This document shows, piece by piece, positions 39,437 to 48,508 of a DNA stretch of 64,000 nucleotides. This DNA comes from Sandaracinus amylolyticus (GTDB lineage Bacteria; Myxococcota_A; Polyangia; Polyangiales; Sandaracinaceae): the NCBI RefSeq assembly GCF_021631985.1, contig NZ_CP070225.1, forward strand, positions 5,766,001 through 5,830,000, given 5' to 3'. Each line of letters starts with the position of its first letter. The stretch's first letter is position 1. Position numbers and translations under genes: made by a program. The notes under the pieces were generated by a model, which searched no databases, had not been told where the DNA came from, and saw only the letters and a program-made list of their open reading frames with translations.

Positions 39437-39808
39437 TCACGAAGGGGGGACCAGCGCCTGATCGAGGGCACCGAGCAGGGCCTCGTCGTCGAACGGCTTC
39501 ACGAGGAGCGCGACGGCGCCGGCATCACGGGCGCGCGCGCGGATCTCGTCGGTGGGCTGACCGGTGATGAACACGACCGGCAGCGTCTCTCCGCGGCGGA
39601 CGATCTCGGCGAAGAGATCGGGGCCGCTCATGCGCGGCATGCGGACGTCGGCGATCAGGCAGTCGGCACCGCGACGGGCGTCCGACTCGAGGCATGCCTC
39701 GGGCGACGAGAAGGCGATCACGCGATAGCCGGCCGAGACCAGCAGCGCCCGCAGGGACTCGCGGACCGACTCGTCGTCGTCGACGACGCACACCAGGTTG
39801 GAGAACAT
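39437..39808 (-). CDS. Single-domain response regulator
   Basis: A receiver-only protein of 123 residues: VVDDDES, phospho-acceptor in LIADVRMPRMSG, Thr in FITGQ and Lys in VKPFDDE. With no output domain it may act by protein contact or phosphate transfer, or as a phosphate sink for the neighbouring kinases. It is the first gene of the regulator operon; the next gene starts 11 bp downstream. ATG 39808 begins the receiver fold directly. An ATG at 39850 would add a short tail and overlaps an inverted repeat. Confidence 0.9.
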   Translation of the reverse strand: MFSNLVCVVDDDESVRESLRALLVSAGYRVIAFSSPEACLESDARRGADCLIADVRMPRMSGPDLFAEIVRRGETLPVVFITGQPTDEIRARARDAGAVALLVKPFDDEALLGALDQALVPPS

Positions 39809-39850
39809 CCGAGTGACGCGAGCGTGCGCGGGGACGCGCGGGGTGGCCAT

Positions 39851-39864
39851 CATACCTTGGTATG
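39851..39864. promoter_or_regulatory. Inverted repeat CATACC-TT-GGTATG
   Basis: Perfect 6-bp arms around a 2-bp centre, about 43 bp before the single-receiver gene ATG and in the gap to the AraC gene. It is probably an operator for a dimeric regulator, or it overlaps the regulator-operon promoter. Confidence 0.5.
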
Positions 39865-39900
39865 GGTGCCGTCCCGGCCGCGCCGACGCGCCGACACCGG

Positions 39901-39916
39901 TGTCCACGGTTGGACA
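39901..39916. promoter_or_regulatory. Palindrome TGTCCACGGTTGGACA (candidate UAS)
   Basis: A 6-bp-arm inverted repeat (TGTCCA/TGGACA) with 4-bp centre. It matches the element at 30985 in 15 of 16 positions. It lies 54 bp upstream of the sigma-54-like promoter for the AraC gene and about 95 bp from the regulator operon start, so it could serve either gene. Confidence 0.65.
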
Positions 39917-39970
39917 GCGACGCGCGACGGGGCCGTCGAGACCGCGCGCGTCACACGGGGATCACGCGTC

Positions 39971-39985
39971 TGGCACGCACGCTGC
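39971..39985 (+). promoter_or_regulatory. Candidate sigma-54 promoter TGGCACG-CACG-CTGC
   Basis: A perfect TGGCACG -24 element and CTGC -12 element at the right spacing, 28 bp before the AraC gene ATG, with an NtrC-type activator gene nearby. Confidence 0.7.
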
Positions 39986-40013
39986 TCGATGGCGGTGCGG
40001 AGGACGCATCACG

Positions 40014-40820
40014 ATGGCACGAACCGCTCGCGCTCCACGCCCCACTTCGTCGTGCGAGGCGCTCTCGGTCCGATGGTCTCGCCACGGCGAAGGGTACGCC
40101 GCGCTCGAGGTGCTCGAGGTGGACGAGGCCCCGTCGCGCGCGTGGTCCTTCGTGTGGCCCGCGCGCGTGATGGTGCAGGCGCGCAGCGCGGGCGTCCGGT
40201 TCCGCGCCGGTCGCCAGCGCGGCGAGCTCGCGCTCGGCTCGGTGCTGGTGATCGACGGGCCGAGCGCGCACGTGGTGCTGCACACCGATCGCGGCGCGTC
40301 GTTCCGCGTGGTGTTCGGCCGGCCCGAGGGCACGGCGCCCGGTGCTGCGCTCGAGGTGCGCACCGCGCGTGTCGTCGACCTCGACGTCGATCTCGATCCG
40401 GTGCGCATCGACGAGCGCGCGCGCGACGCGCTGCGGACCGTGGGCCCGGCGCCGAGGCGGCTCGACGCGCGGCTCGCGCGCGCCTGCCAGCACATCGCGC
40501 AGACCCTCACCGAGGAGCTGCGGCTCGAGGATCTCGCGGCGATCGCGGGGGTCCACCGTTGTCATCTCTGCCGGGTGTTCGCGCAGCACCTCGGGCTCTC
40601 TCCGCTGCGCTTCCGCGCGCACGTGCGCGTCGCGCGGGCGCGGGCGCTGCTCGCGGCGGGCGCGGACTGCATCTCGGTCGCGCACGAGGTGGGCTACTGC
40701 GATCAGAGCCACTTCAACCGGAGCTTCCGCGAGATCACCGGCACCACGCCGGGCGCGTACGCGCGGGTCGTGCGGATCGCGTGCGAGACCGGCAGCGCTC
40801 GCTGGCTCTCGGCGGCGTGA
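40014..40820 (+). CDS. AraC-family regulator under a sigma-54-like promoter
   Basis: A protein of 268 residues. The C-terminal domain has two helix-turn-helix units (LRLEDLAAIAGVHRCHLCRVF and CISVAHEVGYCDQSHFNRSF) and the typical ITGTTPGAYAR end. The N-terminal half is a cupin-like sensor with GVRFRAGRQRGELALGSVLV and no clear ligand site. GGAGG lies 10 nt upstream of ATG 40014. AraC genes behind sigma-54 promoters are uncommon, and this one could form a second tier of the circuit. Confidence 0.88.
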   Translation: MARTARAPRPTSSCEALSVRWSRHGEGYAALEVLEVDEAPSRAWSFVWPARVMVQARSAGVRFRAGRQRGELALGSVLVIDGPSAHVVLHTDRGASFRVVFGRPEGTAPGAALEVRTARVVDLDVDLDPVRIDERARDALRTVGPAPRRLDARLARACQHIAQTLTEELRLEDLAAIAGVHRCHLCRVFAQHLGLSPLRFRAHVRVARARALLAAGADCISVAHEVGYCDQSHFNRSFREITGTTPGAYARVVRIACETGSARWLSAA

Positions 40821-40852: not shown

Positions 40853-41518
40853 TCACCGCAGATCCGACGACGACACCAGCGCGCCGAACGCGAGGCCGCT
40901 CGCGATGCCGAGGAGCGCGCCGACGACGACGTCGGTCGTGTGGTGCATGTCGCCGATGATCCGCAGCAGCGCGACCGCCGCGGCCGAGCCGATCGATCCG
41001 ATGCAGAGGCCGGTGTCCCACGCATCGCCGAGCGCGCTGCGACGCGCGCACACGAGCGCGGCGCTGGTGGCCGCCAGCGCGGCGTGCAGCGAGTAGAAGC
41101 TGAGCGTCGCGGCCCGCGCATCACACGCGAACGGCGTCTCGGCGCACGCGAGCGTGTAGGGGCGAGCGCGCACCGTCGCGTGCTTCACCAGCTCGCCGAG
41201 CGTCCAAGTGAGCGCGAGCGCACCGATGCCGAAGAACAACGAGGGCGCGAGCGCGTCGGGGTCGTCGTGGGAGAGCGGATCGACGATCGCGTCGCCGATC
41301 GCGACCCCGACCGTCGCGAGGAGCAGCACGTCGCTCACCGTGCGAGCGCGCCCTCGGACGTCCTCGGTGCCGCCGCGGAGCGCGGCGCGGAGCGTGGTGT
41401 CGATCGCCGGCGCGCCGGGCGTCTCCGGCTCCCACTCGAGCTGCGCGTGCGCGGTCGAGGAGAGCACCGAGATCGCGATCACCCACACTGCCGTGCGCAT
41501 TTTCACGTTCGCGATCAC
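40853..41518 (-). CDS. PAP2-superfamily membrane phosphatase
   Basis: A protein of 221 residues. A signal-like N-terminus (RTAVWVIAISVLSSTAHAQ) precedes helices carrying the three phosphatase motifs: KHATVRARPYT (motif 1), SFYSLHAA (motif 2, with the catalytic His but PSGH changed to YSLH) and RIIGDMHHTTDVVVGALLG (motif 3). It probably dephosphorylates lipid phosphates at the periplasmic side. GTG 41518 overlaps the stop of the FadL-type gene (GTGA), so the two are coupled. ATG 41500 is an alternative. Confidence 0.85.
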   Translation of the reverse strand: MIANVKMRTAVWVIAISVLSSTAHAQLEWEPETPGAPAIDTTLRAALRGGTEDVRGRARTVSDVLLLATVGVAIGDAIVDPLSHDDPDALAPSLFFGIGALALTWTLGELVKHATVRARPYTLACAETPFACDARAATLSFYSLHAALAATSAALVCARRSALGDAWDTGLCIGSIGSAAAVALLRIIGDMHHTTDVVVGALLGIASGLAFGALVSSSDLR

Positions 41519-42996
41519 CGTAGTACGGAGTTGATTTCACCGTCGGACTCGGGCGGACAGTGCTCGGGGAGCTCGTCGGGTGTCGCGACGATCCCGCCGG
41601 GATCGACGCCACAGGCCTCGAGGAATTCGCGGTACACGTCGCGCGCGAAGCGCCCGATCGCGCCCGCGCCGCCGGTCACGAACAGATAGACCGTCTGCCA
41701 CTCGACCGTGGTCGGCGCGTATTGCATCTCGGCCGCGCCGATCGCGCCGAGCGGACGCAGGCCCATGCCCCATCCGAGCATCGCCATCACACCGACCTGG
41801 ATGCGATAGTCGTCGCCGCGATATCCCACGCTCCCACTCAGACCGAATGCGTCGATGCGATCGGGACGATAGGAATCCACGGTCTCGCGCGACAGCGGTG
41901 GTGACGCCGAGAGATTCGTGAACACGCCGAACGCGACTGGCACGATCCCGGCAATCGTCATCTCGCCGCCGAGCGCCGCTTGGAACACCGCATCGGCGTC
42001 GTACTCGCGTGCGATCCACACGCCCGGTCGGGGCGCCGACTCGCTCGATGGAAACGGGCGCACTCGACCCGCCGCGCCGACGACGCCGAGATCCAGCGCG
42101 ACGAGGATCTCGGGATCGAGCGCGAGCGCGAGGCCCGATCGGATCGACCACGGGATCGGCGAGTCGCCCGCGAGATCGTCGCGGCGCTCGAACGTCGCGG
42201 CGGGCGCGCCCCCGACGACCATGCTCGCGTGATCGACCACCGACGCGGTCTCGCTGAGCGCGATCCCGGGAAGGCGCAGCGTGACGCCCCAGCGCCAGCG
42301 ACCGTCGATCTGCCAGTGGAAGCCGAGCATCGCGACGAGGTGCCAGGCCTCCAGCGAGGTCGTGGTCTGTCGCGCCGCGAGCAGCTCGCGCGGCCCGATC
42401 ACCGTCGCGACCTCTTCCTCGCGATGCGTCATCGAGCGGCGCGCGGCGTAGAGCGAGACGCCGAGGCCCCACGCGCGATCGGGCCGGAGCCCGTAGCCGA
42501 TGCCGAACCAGCGCGTGCCGTCGCGGTGCTCGACGCGCAGGCTCGTGGCGCTCGCGCCGTCGGCGTCGTGGAACGAGAAGGCGCGCGTCTCCTGGTGCGG
42601 GTTGAGCGTCGCGATCGCGAGCCCGTGCCGCGGCGCCTCGTCGTCTCCGAAGTGCACGACGCCGCCGAGGAACACCGGCAGCGGCGCGTCCCCGTCGAGC
42701 CTCAGATCCTCGGCGCCGCCGATCGACGCGTAGCCGTCGCGCACCGTGAGGCGATCGGACACGTTCAGCGAGAGGCTGGTCGCGACCGCGCCCGAGTCGC
42801 CGAACGCGAGCGCGCCCGGGTTGTGGTAGACGGCCGAGGCGTCGTCGGCGACGCCGGTGAACGCGCCGCCCAGGCCGAGCGCGTGGCTCCCCACCGGGAA
42901 GCCGGAGTAGTTGAGGGCCTGCGCGCCCGCGATCGGTGCGTGCGCCAGCAGCGCGAGCACGAGCCAGACGCCGCGCGCCGCGAGACGATCGCGCAT
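41515..42996 (-). CDS. OmpP1/FadL-family outer-membrane protein
   Basis: A protein of 493 residues. The signal peptide ends AGAQ; the mature N-terminus has the FadL-type hatch/strand sequence NYSGFPVGSHALGLGGAF, GVADDASAVYHNPGAL, the classic OmpP1 signature. Many aromatic beta-strands follow, and a Cys/Pro-rich tail (ACGVDPGGI, ELPEHCPPE) closes the protein. Family members import hydrophobic molecules such as long-chain fatty acids. Coupling with a PAP2 phosphatase suggests lipid uptake or processing, which is inference. Confidence 0.88.
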   Translation of the reverse strand: MRDRLAARGVWLVLALLAHAPIAGAQALNYSGFPVGSHALGLGGAFTGVADDASAVYHNPGALAFGDSGAVATSLSLNVSDRLTVRDGYASIGGAEDLRLDGDAPLPVFLGGVVHFGDDEAPRHGLAIATLNPHQETRAFSFHDADGASATSLRVEHRDGTRWFGIGYGLRPDRAWGLGVSLYAARRSMTHREEEVATVIGPRELLAARQTTTSLEAWHLVAMLGFHWQIDGRWRWGVTLRLPGIALSETASVVDHASMVVGGAPAATFERRDDLAGDSPIPWSIRSGLALALDPEILVALDLGVVGAAGRVRPFPSSESAPRPGVWIAREYDADAVFQAALGGEMTIAGIVPVAFGVFTNLSASPPLSRETVDSYRPDRIDAFGLSGSVGYRGDDYRIQVGVMAMLGWGMGLRPLGAIGAAEMQYAPTTVEWQTVYLFVTGGAGAIGRFARDVYREFLEACGVDPGGIVATPDELPEHCPPESDGEINSVLR

Positions 42997-43003
42997 GTGC
43001 GGA

Positions 43004-43438
43004 TCAGGCGGTCTTCAGCGAGGCGCGCAGCGTGATCTTCGGCACGCCTGCGAGCGCCTTCGACACCGGGCACGTCGCCTTCGCGGTCTCGGCGTGGCGA
43101 ACGAACGTCGCCTCGTCGATGCCCGGGACGACGCCCTCGAGCTCGAGCGCGATCTCGGGGATCGAGAACTGCCCGCCGTCGTTCGCGAGCGTGACGCTCG
43201 CGTGGGTGCGGAGCTCGGTCGGCGTGAGCCCCGCGCTGCTGAGGATCGCGCTGACCGCCATCGTGAAGCACGCGGCGTGGGCCGCGCCGAGCAGCTCCTC
43301 GGGGTTCGAGCCCGGACCGTCCTCCATGCGCGAGCGCACCGAGTAGCTCGCCTTCACGGCGGTGCTCTGGGTCGCGATGCTGCCGCGTCCCTCGCGCAGG
43401 TTGCCGTTCCACACCACGTCTGCAGTTCGCTTGGCCAT
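43004..43438 (-). CDS. OsmC-family peroxiredoxin
   Basis: A protein of 144 residues. The OsmC fold includes the two redox Cys in GAAHAACFTMAV and ETAKATCPVSKAL and the conserved Arg in SVRSRMEDGPGSNPEELL. OsmC/Ohr proteins reduce organic hydroperoxides using lipoyl or dithiol partners. ATG 43438 is chosen because AGGA lies 9 nt upstream; an ATG at 43447 is close by. It follows the catalase gene (50 bp) in the same direction, and the leader holds the GCAACACCGTCCAAGG motif. Confidence 0.92.
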   Translation of the reverse strand: MAKRTADVVWNGNLREGRGSIATQSTAVKASYSVRSRMEDGPGSNPEELLGAAHAACFTMAVSAILSSAGLTPTELRTHASVTLANDGGQFSIPEIALELEGVVPGIDEATFVRHAETAKATCPVSKALAGVPKITLRASLKTA

Positions 43439-43470
43439 GATCGTCATCCTGCGCGGCGCCTGCGGGGATG

Positions 43471-43487: not shown

Positions 43488-44921
43488 TCAGCGATCGAGC
43501 CCGAGCGCGCGCGCCACGCCGGCGCCGTACTCGGGATCCGCCTTCGTGCAGTTCGCGACGTGGCGCTCGCACACCTCGCGGCTCACGCCGCGCATCGCGC
43601 GCGCGGTGTTGTCGAAGAGGCGCTGCTTCTCCTCGGGCGAGAAGAGCCGGAAGAGCGCGCCGGGCTGCGAGTGATCGTCGCCGTCGAGACGGTGATCGAA
43701 GTGGGTCGCCGCGCCCTCGAGCGCGAGCGGCGGCTCCATGCGCTCGGGGCTGTCGGTCCACTCGCCGTGCGAGTTCGGGACGTACGCGAGGCGACGGCCC
43801 TGGTTGCCGTCGACGCGGCCCTGACCGTCACGGTGATAGCTGTGCACCGGGCACTTCGGCGCGTTCACCGGGATCTGGTGGTGGTTCACGCCGAGCCGAT
43901 ATCGCTGCGCATCGCCGTACGAGAAGAGGCGCGCCTGCAGCATGCGATCGGGCGAGAACCCGATCCCCGGCACGACGTTCGCGGGAGAGAACGCGGCCTG
44001 CTCGACCTCGGCGAACACGTTCTCCGGGTTGCGGTTCAGCTCGAGCACGCCGACCTCGATCAGCGGGAAGTCGGCGTGCGGCCACACCTTCGTCAGATCG
44101 AACGGGTTCTGGCGCCACGTGCGCGCCTGCTCCTCGCTCATGATCTGCACGAAGAGCGTCCAGCGCGGGAAGTCGCCGCGCTCGATCGCCTCGAAGAGAT
44201 CGCGCTGCGAGCTCTCGCGATCGCGACCGACGAGCTCCTGCGCCTCCGCGTCGGTGAGGTTCTGGATCCCCTGCTGGGTCTTCAGCGCGAATTTCACCCA
44301 GCAGCGCTCGTTCTTCGCGTTCACGAAGCTGAACGTGTGGCTGCCGAACCCGTGCATGTGGCGGTAGCCGCGAGGCAGGCCGCGATCGCTCATCACGATC
44401 GTCACCTGGTGCAGCGCCTCGGGCATGAGCGTCCAGAAGTCCCAGTTGCTCTCGGCGCTGCGCATGCCGGTGTGCGGGTCGCGCTTCACCGCATGGTTGA
44501 GATCGGGGAAGCGCAGCGGGTCGCGCAGGAAGAACACCGGCGTGTTGTTGCCGACGAGATCCCAGATGCCCTCTTCGGTGTAGAGCTTCACCGCGAAGCC
44601 GCGGATGTCGCGCTCGGCGTCGGCCGCGCCGCGCTCGCCCGCGACCGTCGAGAACCGCACGAACGCCTCGGTGCGCTTGCCGATCTCGGAGAAGAGCGCG
44701 GCCTTCGTGTGGCGCGTGATGTCGTGCGTGACCGTGAAGTGGCCGTACGCGCCCGAGCCCTTCGCGTGCATGCGCCGCTCGGGGATCACCTCGCGATCGA
44801 AGTGCGCGAGCTTCTCGAGGAGCCAGACGTCCTCGAGCAACGTCGGACCTCGGGGCCCGGCGGTGAGCGTGTTCTGGTTGTCGACGACCGGGGCGCCCGA
44901 GGCATGCGTCAGCTTGCTCAT
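43488..44921 (-). CDS. Monofunctional heme catalase (small-subunit type)
   Basis: A protein of 477 residues, usual for small-subunit catalases. The distal heme His is in [14 protein letters not shown], Asn in [13 protein letters not shown], and the proximal heme-binding Tyr is in [14 protein letters not shown]. The [10 protein letters not shown] and [12 protein letters not shown] motifs are also intact. It converts H2O2 to water and O2 in the cytoplasm. The gene is flanked by OsmC and an iron/redox fusion gene, so this is a peroxide-defence locus. The leader holds the GCAAAGGGCGTCCAACGG motif. Confidence 0.96.
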
Positions 44922-44973: not shown

Positions 44974-46935
44974 TCAGGACGAGCGGAAGCCGATGCGCGC
45001 GTGGGTGCCGTCGCACACCGGCTTGGTCGACGAGCCGCCGCACCGGCAGAGCCGCACGCCGCTCGTGCGCAGCACGATGCGCCCGGTGCCCGCGCAGATC
45101 TCGACGTTGCCGCGGACGTCGAGCGGTCCGTCCTCGATGGGCACGACCGCGAGCGTTCCGTCCCGCACCGGCAGCGCGGTGGTCTCGATCGACGCGGGCT
45201 CGCCGCTCGCCGCGAATCCCTCGGTGTGCGAGCCGTCGCAGAACGGCTTCTTGCGGCTGCGGCCACAGCGACAGAGCGTGGCGCGATGGCGCGGGTCCTC
45301 GCCTTCGATCGCGAGCGCCGCGTGGATCGCGAGCGGGCCGTTCTCGCGGATGCGGATCGTGTTCACCGCGGGCGCTTCTTCCTGCGGTCCGCCGTCGAAG
45401 CGCTGGTAGGTGATCGCGCCGCTCGGGCACGCCTGCGCGACGCGCACCAGCGCTTCGACCGAGACGGTCTCGGGGTGCAGCCACGGTCCCTGCACGTTGG
45501 CGAGGAACACCGTCGGCTCGCCGAGCACGCAGTGCCGCGCGTGGATGCAGCGCCGGCCCTCGAACCGGAGCGCGACCTCCTCGGTGCGCGCCTCTTCGAC
45601 GAACGCGCCGGGCTGCGGCGGCACGACGGTCAGCGTGCGACGCGGTGAAGGCTGCGGAGGCGCGGAGGGCGTGCTCGTCGCCCGCTGGTCCTCCAGCGCG
45701 CGCTGCTCCTCGAGGGCCCCCGCGAGGCGCTCCATCACCCGCACCGTGTGCGCGATCGGCGATGCGATCCGCGCGATCGATCCACACGCACCGGCGAGCT
45801 CGCGCGCGCGCTCGGCGAGGAACGTCCACTCGCTCCGTCCGTGCGGGATCGTGTCGACCGAGCGCAGGAGCGCGAAGCTCACGCCCGCGTTCACGCCGGG
45901 ATGCTCGGGGCTCGCGGGCAGGCGCGTCAGCTCGGTGCCGAGGATCGCGAACGCGCGCATCGCGTCGACCGCCGACGCGAGCAGCGTGCGCTTCGCGTCG
46001 CGATCGCCGCTGCGCACGAAGCCCTGACAGAGGAGCCGCAGCGAGAGCGTGTAGATCGAGTTGGCGACGTCGAGCAGCGCGGCCGCGTCGGGCTCGACGA
46101 TCCACACGCGACCGCGGGGATCGAGCGGGCTGCGCATCACCGGGTTCCGGGCCGCCGGGCGCGCCGCGCGGAAGTCGGGGCGCGCCGCCGAGAGCTCCGC
46201 GTGCTCGTCGCGCACCTGCGAGAACATCGCGAAGTGCGATCCCTCCGAGTGCCCCGGCGCGCCTTCGCCCTGGAGCACGATCGTGTCGAGCGCGGCGTGC
46301 GCCGACGCGAGGTCGGTCACCGCACGGATGGCGGGCAGCGACATGAGATCAGGGCCGACCTGCGCCGAAGGATCGCCGATGAAGAGCCCCTTCTCGCCGA
46401 GCTCGTCGGAGAGGTGGTCGAAGCCGATCCGGATCGCCGCGTAGAGCTCGCCGACCGTGTCGTAGTCCTGTGCCGACGGCATGTAGCGAGTGGGGCGCGC
46501 GTCGCGCGAGTAGCTGCGCGTCACGTCGAAGCCGGCGCCGTCGGGGAGCTCGATGCCCACCGGCCGCTCGAGGAACACGAAGTGCTCGAGGGTCGCGCGA
46601 TCGCAGGGCGCGAGCTCGAGCACCAGGCGCGACGGATGCGCGCCCGCGCTGATCGGGAAGTTCGATCGATCGAAGTGGGGCGGCGCCCCGATCGCCGTCA
46701 TCAGGTTCGCGACCAGCGAGAGGTGCGTCATCTCCTCGAGCGCGACCCGCAGGATGGTCGCGCGCCAGCGCTCGATCGCGGGCAGCTCGTGCTCGAGCAG
46801 ATCTCCGTCGCGCGCGTCCTTCAGCGAGAACGCGGCGTAGAGATAACAGCACATGAGGTCGTGCTCGACCTCGGCGGCCTCGGCGAGGAGCGCCTGCAGT
46901 TGCTCGCGGTTGTGGACCGGCACGAAGCGCTTCAT
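44974..46935 (-). CDS. Ferritin-like/VioB-type domain fused to Fer4-like and two CDGSH domains
   Basis: A protein of 653 residues. The N-terminal part (1-320) is a ferritin-like diiron fold of the iminophenyl-pyruvate dimer synthase/VioB type: [20 protein letters not shown] and [16 protein letters not shown] supply the Glu and His ligands of a non-heme diiron site. A Pro-rich linker ends near residue 440. Then comes a Fer4_19-type region with C-x5-C (RCIHARHC, later AQACPSGAI), then two CDGSH [2Fe-2S] units ([16 protein letters not shown] near 555; [16 protein letters not shown] near 630) with Cys3-His1 ligands. All ligands look present, so it could relay electrons to the diiron site. Its reaction is unknown. 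Confidence 0.87.
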
Positions 46936-47026: not shown

Positions 47027-47509
47027 TCACGTGTAGCGGGGGTGGTGCGCCTCGACCATCCAGAGATCCTTGTCGGCCTCGCGCGAGATCTCGGTGAAGA
47101 GATCGGCGGTGTCGGCGTCGCCGGCCTCGGTCGCGATCTGGATCGCCTTGCGCGCGAGCGCGGCGTACGCGGCGAGCACCTTGGAGAACGCCTCGACGTG
47201 GGCCGAGCCCGCCTGCAGGTCGAGCGAGTACGCGGGGAGCGACGTGCGCTCGGCCACGCGCTGCGTGGTCCCTTCGGCGTTGCCGCCGAGCGCGACCGCG
47301 CGCTCCGCGATCGTGTCGCTCCACTCCTCGACGTGCTCGGCGACGTCGTCGAAGAGCTCGTGCAGGGCGCGGAACGTGGGGCCTTTCACGTTCCAGTGCG
47401 CCTGCTTGGCTTGGTTGAAGAGGTCGATGGTGGCGGCGAGACGGTCGTTCAGGAGCTCGACCATCTGGGTCCGCACGCGCACGTCGAGATCGTTCAGGGT
47501 GGGGTACAT
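47027..47509 (-). CDS. dps: Dps-like DNA-protecting ferritin
   Basis: A protein of 160 residues. The dinuclear ferroxidase-centre motifs are intact: FNQAKQAHWNVKGPTFRALH and FDDVAEHVEEWSDTIAERA (His, Asp and Glu). The GNAEGTTQRVAE loop and the long helix IQIATEAGDADTADLFTEI are standard. Dps dodecamers oxidise and store iron, consuming H2O2. It is divergent from an AraC gene, and downstream of the catalase group on the same strand. No distinct SD was found. Confidence 0.94.
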   Translation of the reverse strand: MYPTLNDLDVRVRTQMVELLNDRLAATIDLFNQAKQAHWNVKGPTFRALHELFDDVAEHVEEWSDTIAERAVALGGNAEGTTQRVAERTSLPAYSLDLQAGSAHVEAFSKVLAAYAALARKAIQIATEAGDADTADLFTEISREADKDLWMVEAHHPRYT

Positions 47510-47644: not shown

Positions 47645-48508
47645 ATGTCCAGCCTGCACCTCCTCCCCTCCGAGCTTCCCTCGCCGGGCGTCGCGGCGCG
47701 CCCGGGTGCGGGCGATCTCGAGCCCGCGGGCACGTTCCTCGGCGCGATGAGCGCGACCGACTGGCGGCGCGCCCCGCACCCGCTGGTCGTCGAGGTGCGC
47801 GCCGGCGATCGCACGCTGCAGCTGAAGCACGCGTCGATCGCGATCGCGTCGGGATCGATCGTGCTGCTCCCGCCCCACGAGGTGCACGCGTGGAGCGCGC
47901 CCGCACCCGGCGCCCCGAACGACGTCCTCCAGGTCCACCTCGCGCCGCCGCCGCCGGTGATCGTCGGAGCGGCACCGATGCCCTTCGCGCCGGTGCGCGT
48001 GCTGTCGCGGCCCGAGCGCAGCGCGCTCGGAGAGGTGCTCCTCGAGATCGAGAGCGACGCCGCGACGCTGCACGGCTCGGGTCGCTGCCGCGAGCGCCGC
48101 TACGTGCGGAAGGTGCGCGAGCACCTCGAGCGGGAGTGGCAGCGCAACGTGCCCCTCGACGAGCTCGGAGAGCTCGCGGGCGTCTCGGTGTTCCACCTGG
48201 TGCGCGTGTTCACGCGCGAGGTCGGGCTGCCGCCGCACCTCTTCCAGGTGCAGTGCCGGCTCGAGCACGCACGCTCGCTGCTCGGACGGGGGACCGTGTG
48301 CCGCGAGGTCGCGCTCCACTGCGGCTTCGCGGATCAGAGCCACTTCAACCGGCACTTCAAGCGCGTGATGGGCTTCACGCCCGGCGCGTACGCGGCGCTC
48401 CGGCCGCATCCGCGCGATCGACGCGTCGTGGCGGCCTTCCGCAGGGCCGCGGGGGAGCGCGCGTGGTGCGACGGTGAGCTCGCGGGCCCGGAGCGATCGG
48501 CGGTCTGA
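47645..48508 (+). CDS. AraC-family transcriptional regulator
   Basis: A protein of 287 residues. The N-terminal AraC_binding-type cupin (SIVLLPPHEVHAWSAPAPG) binds an unknown effector. The C-terminal domain has VPLDELGELAGVSVFHLVRVF and CREVALHCGFADQSHFNRHF with GFTPGAYAAL. It is divergent from dps, 135 bp away, so control of that gene is possible. ATG 47645 is well placed but has no strong SD. Confidence 0.88.
   Translation: MSSLHLLPSELPSPGVAARPGAGDLEPAGTFLGAMSATDWRRAPHPLVVEVRAGDRTLQLKHASIAIASGSIVLLPPHEVHAWSAPAPGAPNDVLQVHLAPPPPVIVGAAPMPFAPVRVLSRPERSALGEVLLEIESDAATLHGSGRCRERRYVRKVREHLEREWQRNVPLDELGELAGVSVFHLVRVFTREVGLPPHLFQVQCRLEHARSLLGRGTVCREVALHCGFADQSHFNRHFKRVMGFTPGAYAALRPHPRDRRVVAAFRRAAGERAWCDGELAGPERSAV

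Follow-up and report, generated by a model that had tools for sequence, protein, structure and literature searches.

A conserved bacterial protein combining a ferritin-like domain, a Fer4_19 ferredoxin-like module and two CDGSH motifs, encoded among peroxide-defence genes in Sandaracinus amylolyticus

Rubrerythrin is a peroxidase that combines a ferritin-like dimetal domain with its own iron-containing electron carrier in a single chain. CDGSH (NEET) proteins are important for the biology of iron and peroxide in organisms ranging from bacteria to humans, and their direct redox partners are debated. Surveys published in 2017 and 2018 include, in their accessible text, CDGSH proteins that also bear ferritin-like or Fer4_19 domains, and they term the combination of Fer4_19 with two CDGSH motifs a common bacterial form (PMC5311916, PMC5859297). 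As far as this text goes, the architecture described here is already known at the level of domain lists and belongs to an uncharacterised kind. An initial annotation of the locus had named, as a point that would count against it, an architecture that is common and already assigned, of which the first half holds, the architecture being widespread in Myxococcota and the domain combination being in print, whereas literature searches of an open library returned no function for the ferritin-like/Fer4_19/CDGSH2 architecture.

We analysed a stretch of 64,000 nucleotides of the S. amylolyticus genome (the window), in which the fusion gene and its neighbours are located (Table 1). The minus-strand reading frame runs from an ATG start at 46935 to 44974 and encodes 653 aa without internal stop. 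PF12902, zf-CDGSH and Fer4_19 all score above their curated Pfam cut-offs (PF12902 with 144 bits versus a gathering cut-off of 22.3, Fer4_19 with 50.8 bits versus 24, and zf-CDGSH with 4.2e-25 in two stretches of the chain) and, together with near-full-length relatives, these matches confirm the four-module architecture in one chain that had been proposed initially. With two CDGSH motifs of three Cys and one His each, the protein falls into class II of the CDGSH (NEET) proteins. The gene is present as a single copy in the 10.96-Mb genome, and the sole PF12902 and PF09360 (CDGSH) matches of this genome fall within it. All domains of the fusion are under purifying selection, dN/dS compared to the sister species being ~0.19 overall, low in every domain and highest in the 421-446 linker (~0.47). 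Since the same chain recurs in 28 other aligned genomes, at 44-91% identity, the fusion is not a product of chance but a real, conserved bacterial protein. Chance read-through of two genes was ruled out, as the frame is continuous in 31 loci and both halves are under selection.

Table 1. Location of the fusion gene, its modules and its neighbours (positions in the window)
Feature	Position	Strand	Basis and remarks
Divergent AraC-type regulator	47645..48508	+	135 nt from dps; PF12833
dps	47027..47509	-	91 nt upstream of fusion, first gene of the run; NF006975 Dps 185 bits versus cut-off 114
Ferritin-like / Fer4_19 / CDGSH2 fusion, 653 aa	44974..46935	-	single open frame, Pfam, full-length relatives
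PF12902 ferritin-like domain, residues 17-242	46210..46887	-	Pfam 8e-42, 3hl1 fold match
Helical remainder of ferritin-like region, residues 243-421	45673..46209	-	AF2 helices, pLDDT mostly 84-97
Disordered linker, ~residues 422-446	45598..45672	-	low pLDDT, no invariant column, highest dN/dS
Fer4_19 ferredoxin-like module, residues 452-511	45403..45582	-	Pfam 1.7e-13; C463, H465, C469, C503
CDGSH motif 1, residues 555-570	45226..45273	-	zf-CDGSH; ligands 47/47
CDGSH motif 2, residues 630-645	45001..45048	-	zf-CDGSH; 3tbm structural match
Heme catalase katA	43488..44921	-	52 nt downstream of fusion; PF00199 630 bits
OsmC peroxiredoxin osmC	43004..43447	-	40 nt past catalase; TIGR03562 169 bits versus cut-off 85.8
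Predicted outer-membrane protein	41515..42996	-	7 nt past osmC; weak PorV-family match
PAP2 phosphatase	40853..41518	-	4-nt overlap with outer-membrane protein gene; PF01569

Thirty near-full-length relatives, mostly from Myxococcota, keep the architecture. A near-full-length fusion was found in 27 of the 318 genomes of the class (the S. amylolyticus genome counted in), in two more genomes of the phylum and in one of 398 genomes sampled from the phylum to which a Mesorhizobium genome belongs. An Asticcacaulis plasmid moreover carries a full fusion (L132, 7394-9935), whose annotation reads merely "ferritin-like domain-containing protein" and which adjoins YciI-family and DUF6596 genes; this occurrence outside Myxococcota suggests horizontal transfer. 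The standalone Fer4_19-CDGSH2 protein is far commoner than the fusion. A tree of Fer4_19-CDGSH2 regions, built by a quick method with SH-aLRT as sole support, groups 32 fused rows with one standalone row among them, and in it the fused or standalone state requires 2 changes compared to 24 in shuffles. The simplest reading of this tree is that essentially a single event would have produced the fusion, starting from a standalone Fer4_19-CDGSH2 protein, the one standalone row probably reflecting one later loss of the ferritin-like part. Repeated independent fusions were set aside, as two state changes fit a single gain plus a single loss. The fusion gene of a 16-Mb one-contig genome (L120, 6471-8446) shifts frame close to where the CDGSH part begins, and stops are also present in a second PF12902 copy of that genome (L121), due to either decay or sequencing error. 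Another locus (L012, 169-2850) contains an 868-aa frame which opens with a CDGSH-type region and represents a different large CDGSH architecture.

The chain was modelled with AlphaFold2 using the full alignment, resulting in a mean pLDDT of 84.9 and a pTM of 0.65; with this pTM and a pLDDT below 50 in the linker (423-444), the inter-domain placement in the model is uncertain. The best structure match of the ferritin-like part is Caulobacter CC_0557 (3hl1; Z 26.2, rmsd 2.7, 265 residues), with an alignment that reaches residue 355 and thus extends into the helical remainder. Bacterioferritins and Dps-like proteins (Z ~10-11.6) follow, as does Mn catalase 1jku, with Z 10.4 and an rmsd of 2.2 over 140, but for helical bundles Z values below ~13 may lack specificity and only 3hl1 clears this level. 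E24, E68, H71, E224 and H234, which include the ExxH motif of the PF12902 domain (E68xxH71), are invariant throughout the 29 fused proteins as well as in four divergent PF12902 proteins, VioB-like ones included, and these candidate ligands are located in or at the ends of four model helices (10-37, 50-81, 209-223 and 234-251). Based on the range ends of the structural alignments and the general layout of these sites, H234 presumably lies close to H130 of bacterioferritin and H181 of Mn catalase, and E24 close to E18 of bacterioferritin. A six-ligand site of the bacterioferritin type, with ExxH in helices 2 and 4, was not found, as E231, the helix-4 Glu that would complete the second ExxH, is present in 13/29 only. 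The candidate five-ligand site of three Glu and two His, as read from the alignment, resembles that of Mn catalase rather than the six-ligand site of bacterioferritin. For Mn catalase 1JKU, the catalytic residues are given as EEEEHH, with His69 and His181 (PMC11796326). The further invariant residues E22, H25, H118 and E123 could also participate in the metal site.

All 12 proposed Fe-S ligands (C463, H465, C469, C503, C555, C557, C566, H570, C630, C632, C641 and H645) are identical in every one of the 29 aligned full-length sequences (P ~1.6e-9 for 12/12 if invariant columns are placed at random), so that the lack of ligand conservation among relatives which the initial annotation had named as a point against itself is clearly not observed. 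Also in 47 Fer4_19-CDGSH2 regions, with identity down to 32%, every ligand is kept except H465, which is Arg once (Fer4_19 Cys 47/47 and His 46/47; CDGSH ligands 47/47). Nearly all fused proteins have the Fer4_19 motif C-x-H-[AS]-x-x-C...C-P. The Cys-rich Fer4_19-like region noted before is hence a genuine Fer4_19 match in Pfam terms, yet with three Cys and a His instead of a four-Cys ferredoxin motif. The second classical ferredoxin Cys position is Ala or Ser, which argues for binding of a [3Fe-4S] cluster or of a cluster with a non-Cys ligand; from motif and model, the cluster could be [3Fe-4S], or [4Fe-4S] with a His ligand, possibly H465. Predicted alone, from an alignment in which one annotated-plasmid row was left out, the C-terminal part reaches a pLDDT of 95.2. 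Its first 75 residues resemble mono-cluster ferredoxins, [3Fe-4S] ones included (best Z 7.2), and its end resembles the type 4 CDGSH protein 3tbm, with an rmsd of 1.0 across 59 residues. The full class II pseudo-dimer matches CISD3 or 3tbn weakly (Z 2.3-2.6), so that the pairing geometry of the two CDGSH units is tentative.

The gene had been assigned to an operon with catalase and OsmC, and both are indeed encoded immediately downstream on the same strand; dps, directly upstream, had been missed. The whole dps-to-PAP2 block is present in the sister species, with identities of 94% for dps, 97% for the catalase, 79% for the divergent AraC-type regulator and 91% for the fusion protein, and with the osmC, outer-membrane protein and PAP2 genes in synteny. 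Judging from the layout in these two species, dps, the fusion gene, katA and osmC probably are co-transcribed as one operon. The outer-membrane protein and PAP2 genes (40853-42996) possibly belong to the same transcript as osmC and might add a role in the envelope or in lipids to the stress operon. A sigma-70 promoter scan around the operon gave nothing over chance, and terminator-like sites near it fall within genes. A second AraC-type regulator (39798-40820, plus strand) brackets, together with the one at 47645-48508, the minus-strand run from dps to PAP2, and both regulators are conserved in the sister species. Outside the genus, tblastn at the other loci detected no Dps, catalase or OsmC near the fusion gene. 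Neither did neighbour clustering and Pfam analysis of 20 neighbours reveal a shared neighbour there, bar one large cluster which sits at assorted positions and whose only scanned member is a protein kinase. Conservation of the operon beyond the genus was rejected, the immediate neighbours elsewhere being unrelated to one another. Standalone PF12902 genes lie directly 3' of GMC oxidoreductase genes in two alphaproteobacterial plasmids, of Methylobacterium and Pararhizobium (L148, 3239-6167; L151, 49-5044), a possible peroxide-linked pairing; GMC-type and lodA-like oxidases commonly make H2O2. Fungal standalone PF12902 genes adjoin lodA-like oxidase genes (PMC4417212).

By analogy with rubrerythrin, we tentatively favour the fusion being a self-contained dimetal redox enzyme, in which H2O2 or another hydroperoxide would be reduced at the dimetal site with electrons supplied by the protein's own Fe-S modules. 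The N-terminal ferritin-like bundle would hold the two-metal site (E24, E68, H71, E224 and H234), and electrons would enter via the three-Cys ferredoxin-like domain and the class II CDGSH pair, which a flexible linker would tether to the bundle. The hydroperoxide would then be converted to water in a rubrerythrin-like manner but by means of different electron carriers and, within the genus, the partners encoded by dps, katA and osmC serve to sequester iron and to eliminate both H2O2 and organic hydroperoxides. We favour peroxide reduction because of the rubrerythrin plan and because of an operon that removes hydroperoxides and stores iron. A built-in electron carrier fits the absence of a conserved neighbour gene across the fused loci. 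The self-contained electron path suggested initially thus agrees with the lack of a conserved partner gene elsewhere, although the direction of electron flow is presumed. Likewise, the suggested peroxide role finds support in the peroxide-defence operon but rests on one genus, because this operon is shared solely with the sister species and the other members lie beside unrelated genes. Besides this restriction of the dps-katA-osmC operon to two closely related species, it counts against this reading that RebD and StaD, the characterised PF12902 enzymes, are called heme-containing synthases (PMC10851217) and couple imines. That the fusion would represent a new kind of peroxide reductase, with a Mn-catalase-like five-ligand site and an in-chain three-Cys ferredoxin and CDGSH pair, is a proposal about which we are doubtful.

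A role in iron or Fe-S cluster handling is conceivable but rather unlikely. The ferritin-like domain would then oxidise or bind Fe2+ and the CDGSH units would be cargo instead of an electron path, holding, donating or repairing clusters during peroxide stress. Such a role would suit the ferritin-superfamily fold, the presence of dps upstream within the same run and the ability of CDGSH proteins to transfer electrons or whole clusters, as stated in one survey (PMC5859297). It accords poorly with the retention of the bacterioferritin-type second ExxH Glu, E231, in only 13/29 proteins, with the lack of support for a storage cage and with the fusion of a ferredoxin-like module beside the CDGSH pair. 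We also regard it as unlikely that the protein oxidises a small molecule with its own Fe-S donors, like VioB, RebD and StaD do in pigment pathways. E24, E68, H71, E224 and H234 are common to VioB-like proteins and the PF12902 domain aligns with the C-terminal part of the VioB model TIGR04492, but its score is 60.6 bits, compared to an equivalog cut-off of 1250, and the match spans no more than model positions 600-971 of 1003, so that the label "VioB/IPD-type" given in the initial annotation had to be abandoned; PF12902 is a broad family. Moreover, the VioB N-terminal part is absent, these Fe-S modules are missing from VioB-like proteins, and biosynthetic neighbours are absent at the locus, with none shared elsewhere. 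Finally, a heme oxidase or peroxidase, with heme instead of two metal ions in the ferritin-like domain, is very unlikely in spite of the description of the CPA synthases of the PF12902 family (RebD, StaD) as heme-containing (PMC10851217), given that the invariant E/ExxH/E/H set, kept across PF12902, fits a dimetal site and that the fold matches ferritins and Mn catalase.

If peroxide reduction by the fusion is true, CDGSH proteins would gain a defined catalytic redox partner, for which the natural fusion points to a ferritin-like metal site. The fusion, which recurs in many Myxococcota, offers a way to ask, with a single gene, whether a peroxide-handling dimetal centre receives electrons from CDGSH clusters. 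Compared to known systems, the surveyed proteins with ferritin-like and CDGSH domains share the Pfam domains of the fusion, and the accessible text of these surveys is confined to domain content, leaving aside ligands, a single origin of the fusion, operon and fold (PMC5311916, PMC5859297). CC_0557 (3hl1), the best fold match, shows QGEG and ExxH-type motifs in the alignment, but it stands alone as a 317-residue protein that lacks Fe-S modules, and its entry says just "ferritin like protein". VioB, RebD and StaD share the PF12902 domain and the five candidate ligands, whereas the fusion has extra Fe-S modules and lacks the VioB N-terminal part. Mn catalase (PF05067; 1jku) shares the ferritin-superfamily fold and a Glu/His site with two His; the fusion differs from it by the attached Fe-S modules, and neither the fusion protein nor the rest of the genome matches PF05067. 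Up to E = 1, the fusion protein has no Pfam match to a rubrerythrin or rubredoxin domain either. By analogy, rubrerythrin would share with the fusion a dimetal ferritin-like domain and an in-chain iron-containing electron carrier, this carrier being in the fusion a three-Cys ferredoxin module and two CDGSH motifs, combined with fewer metal ligands.
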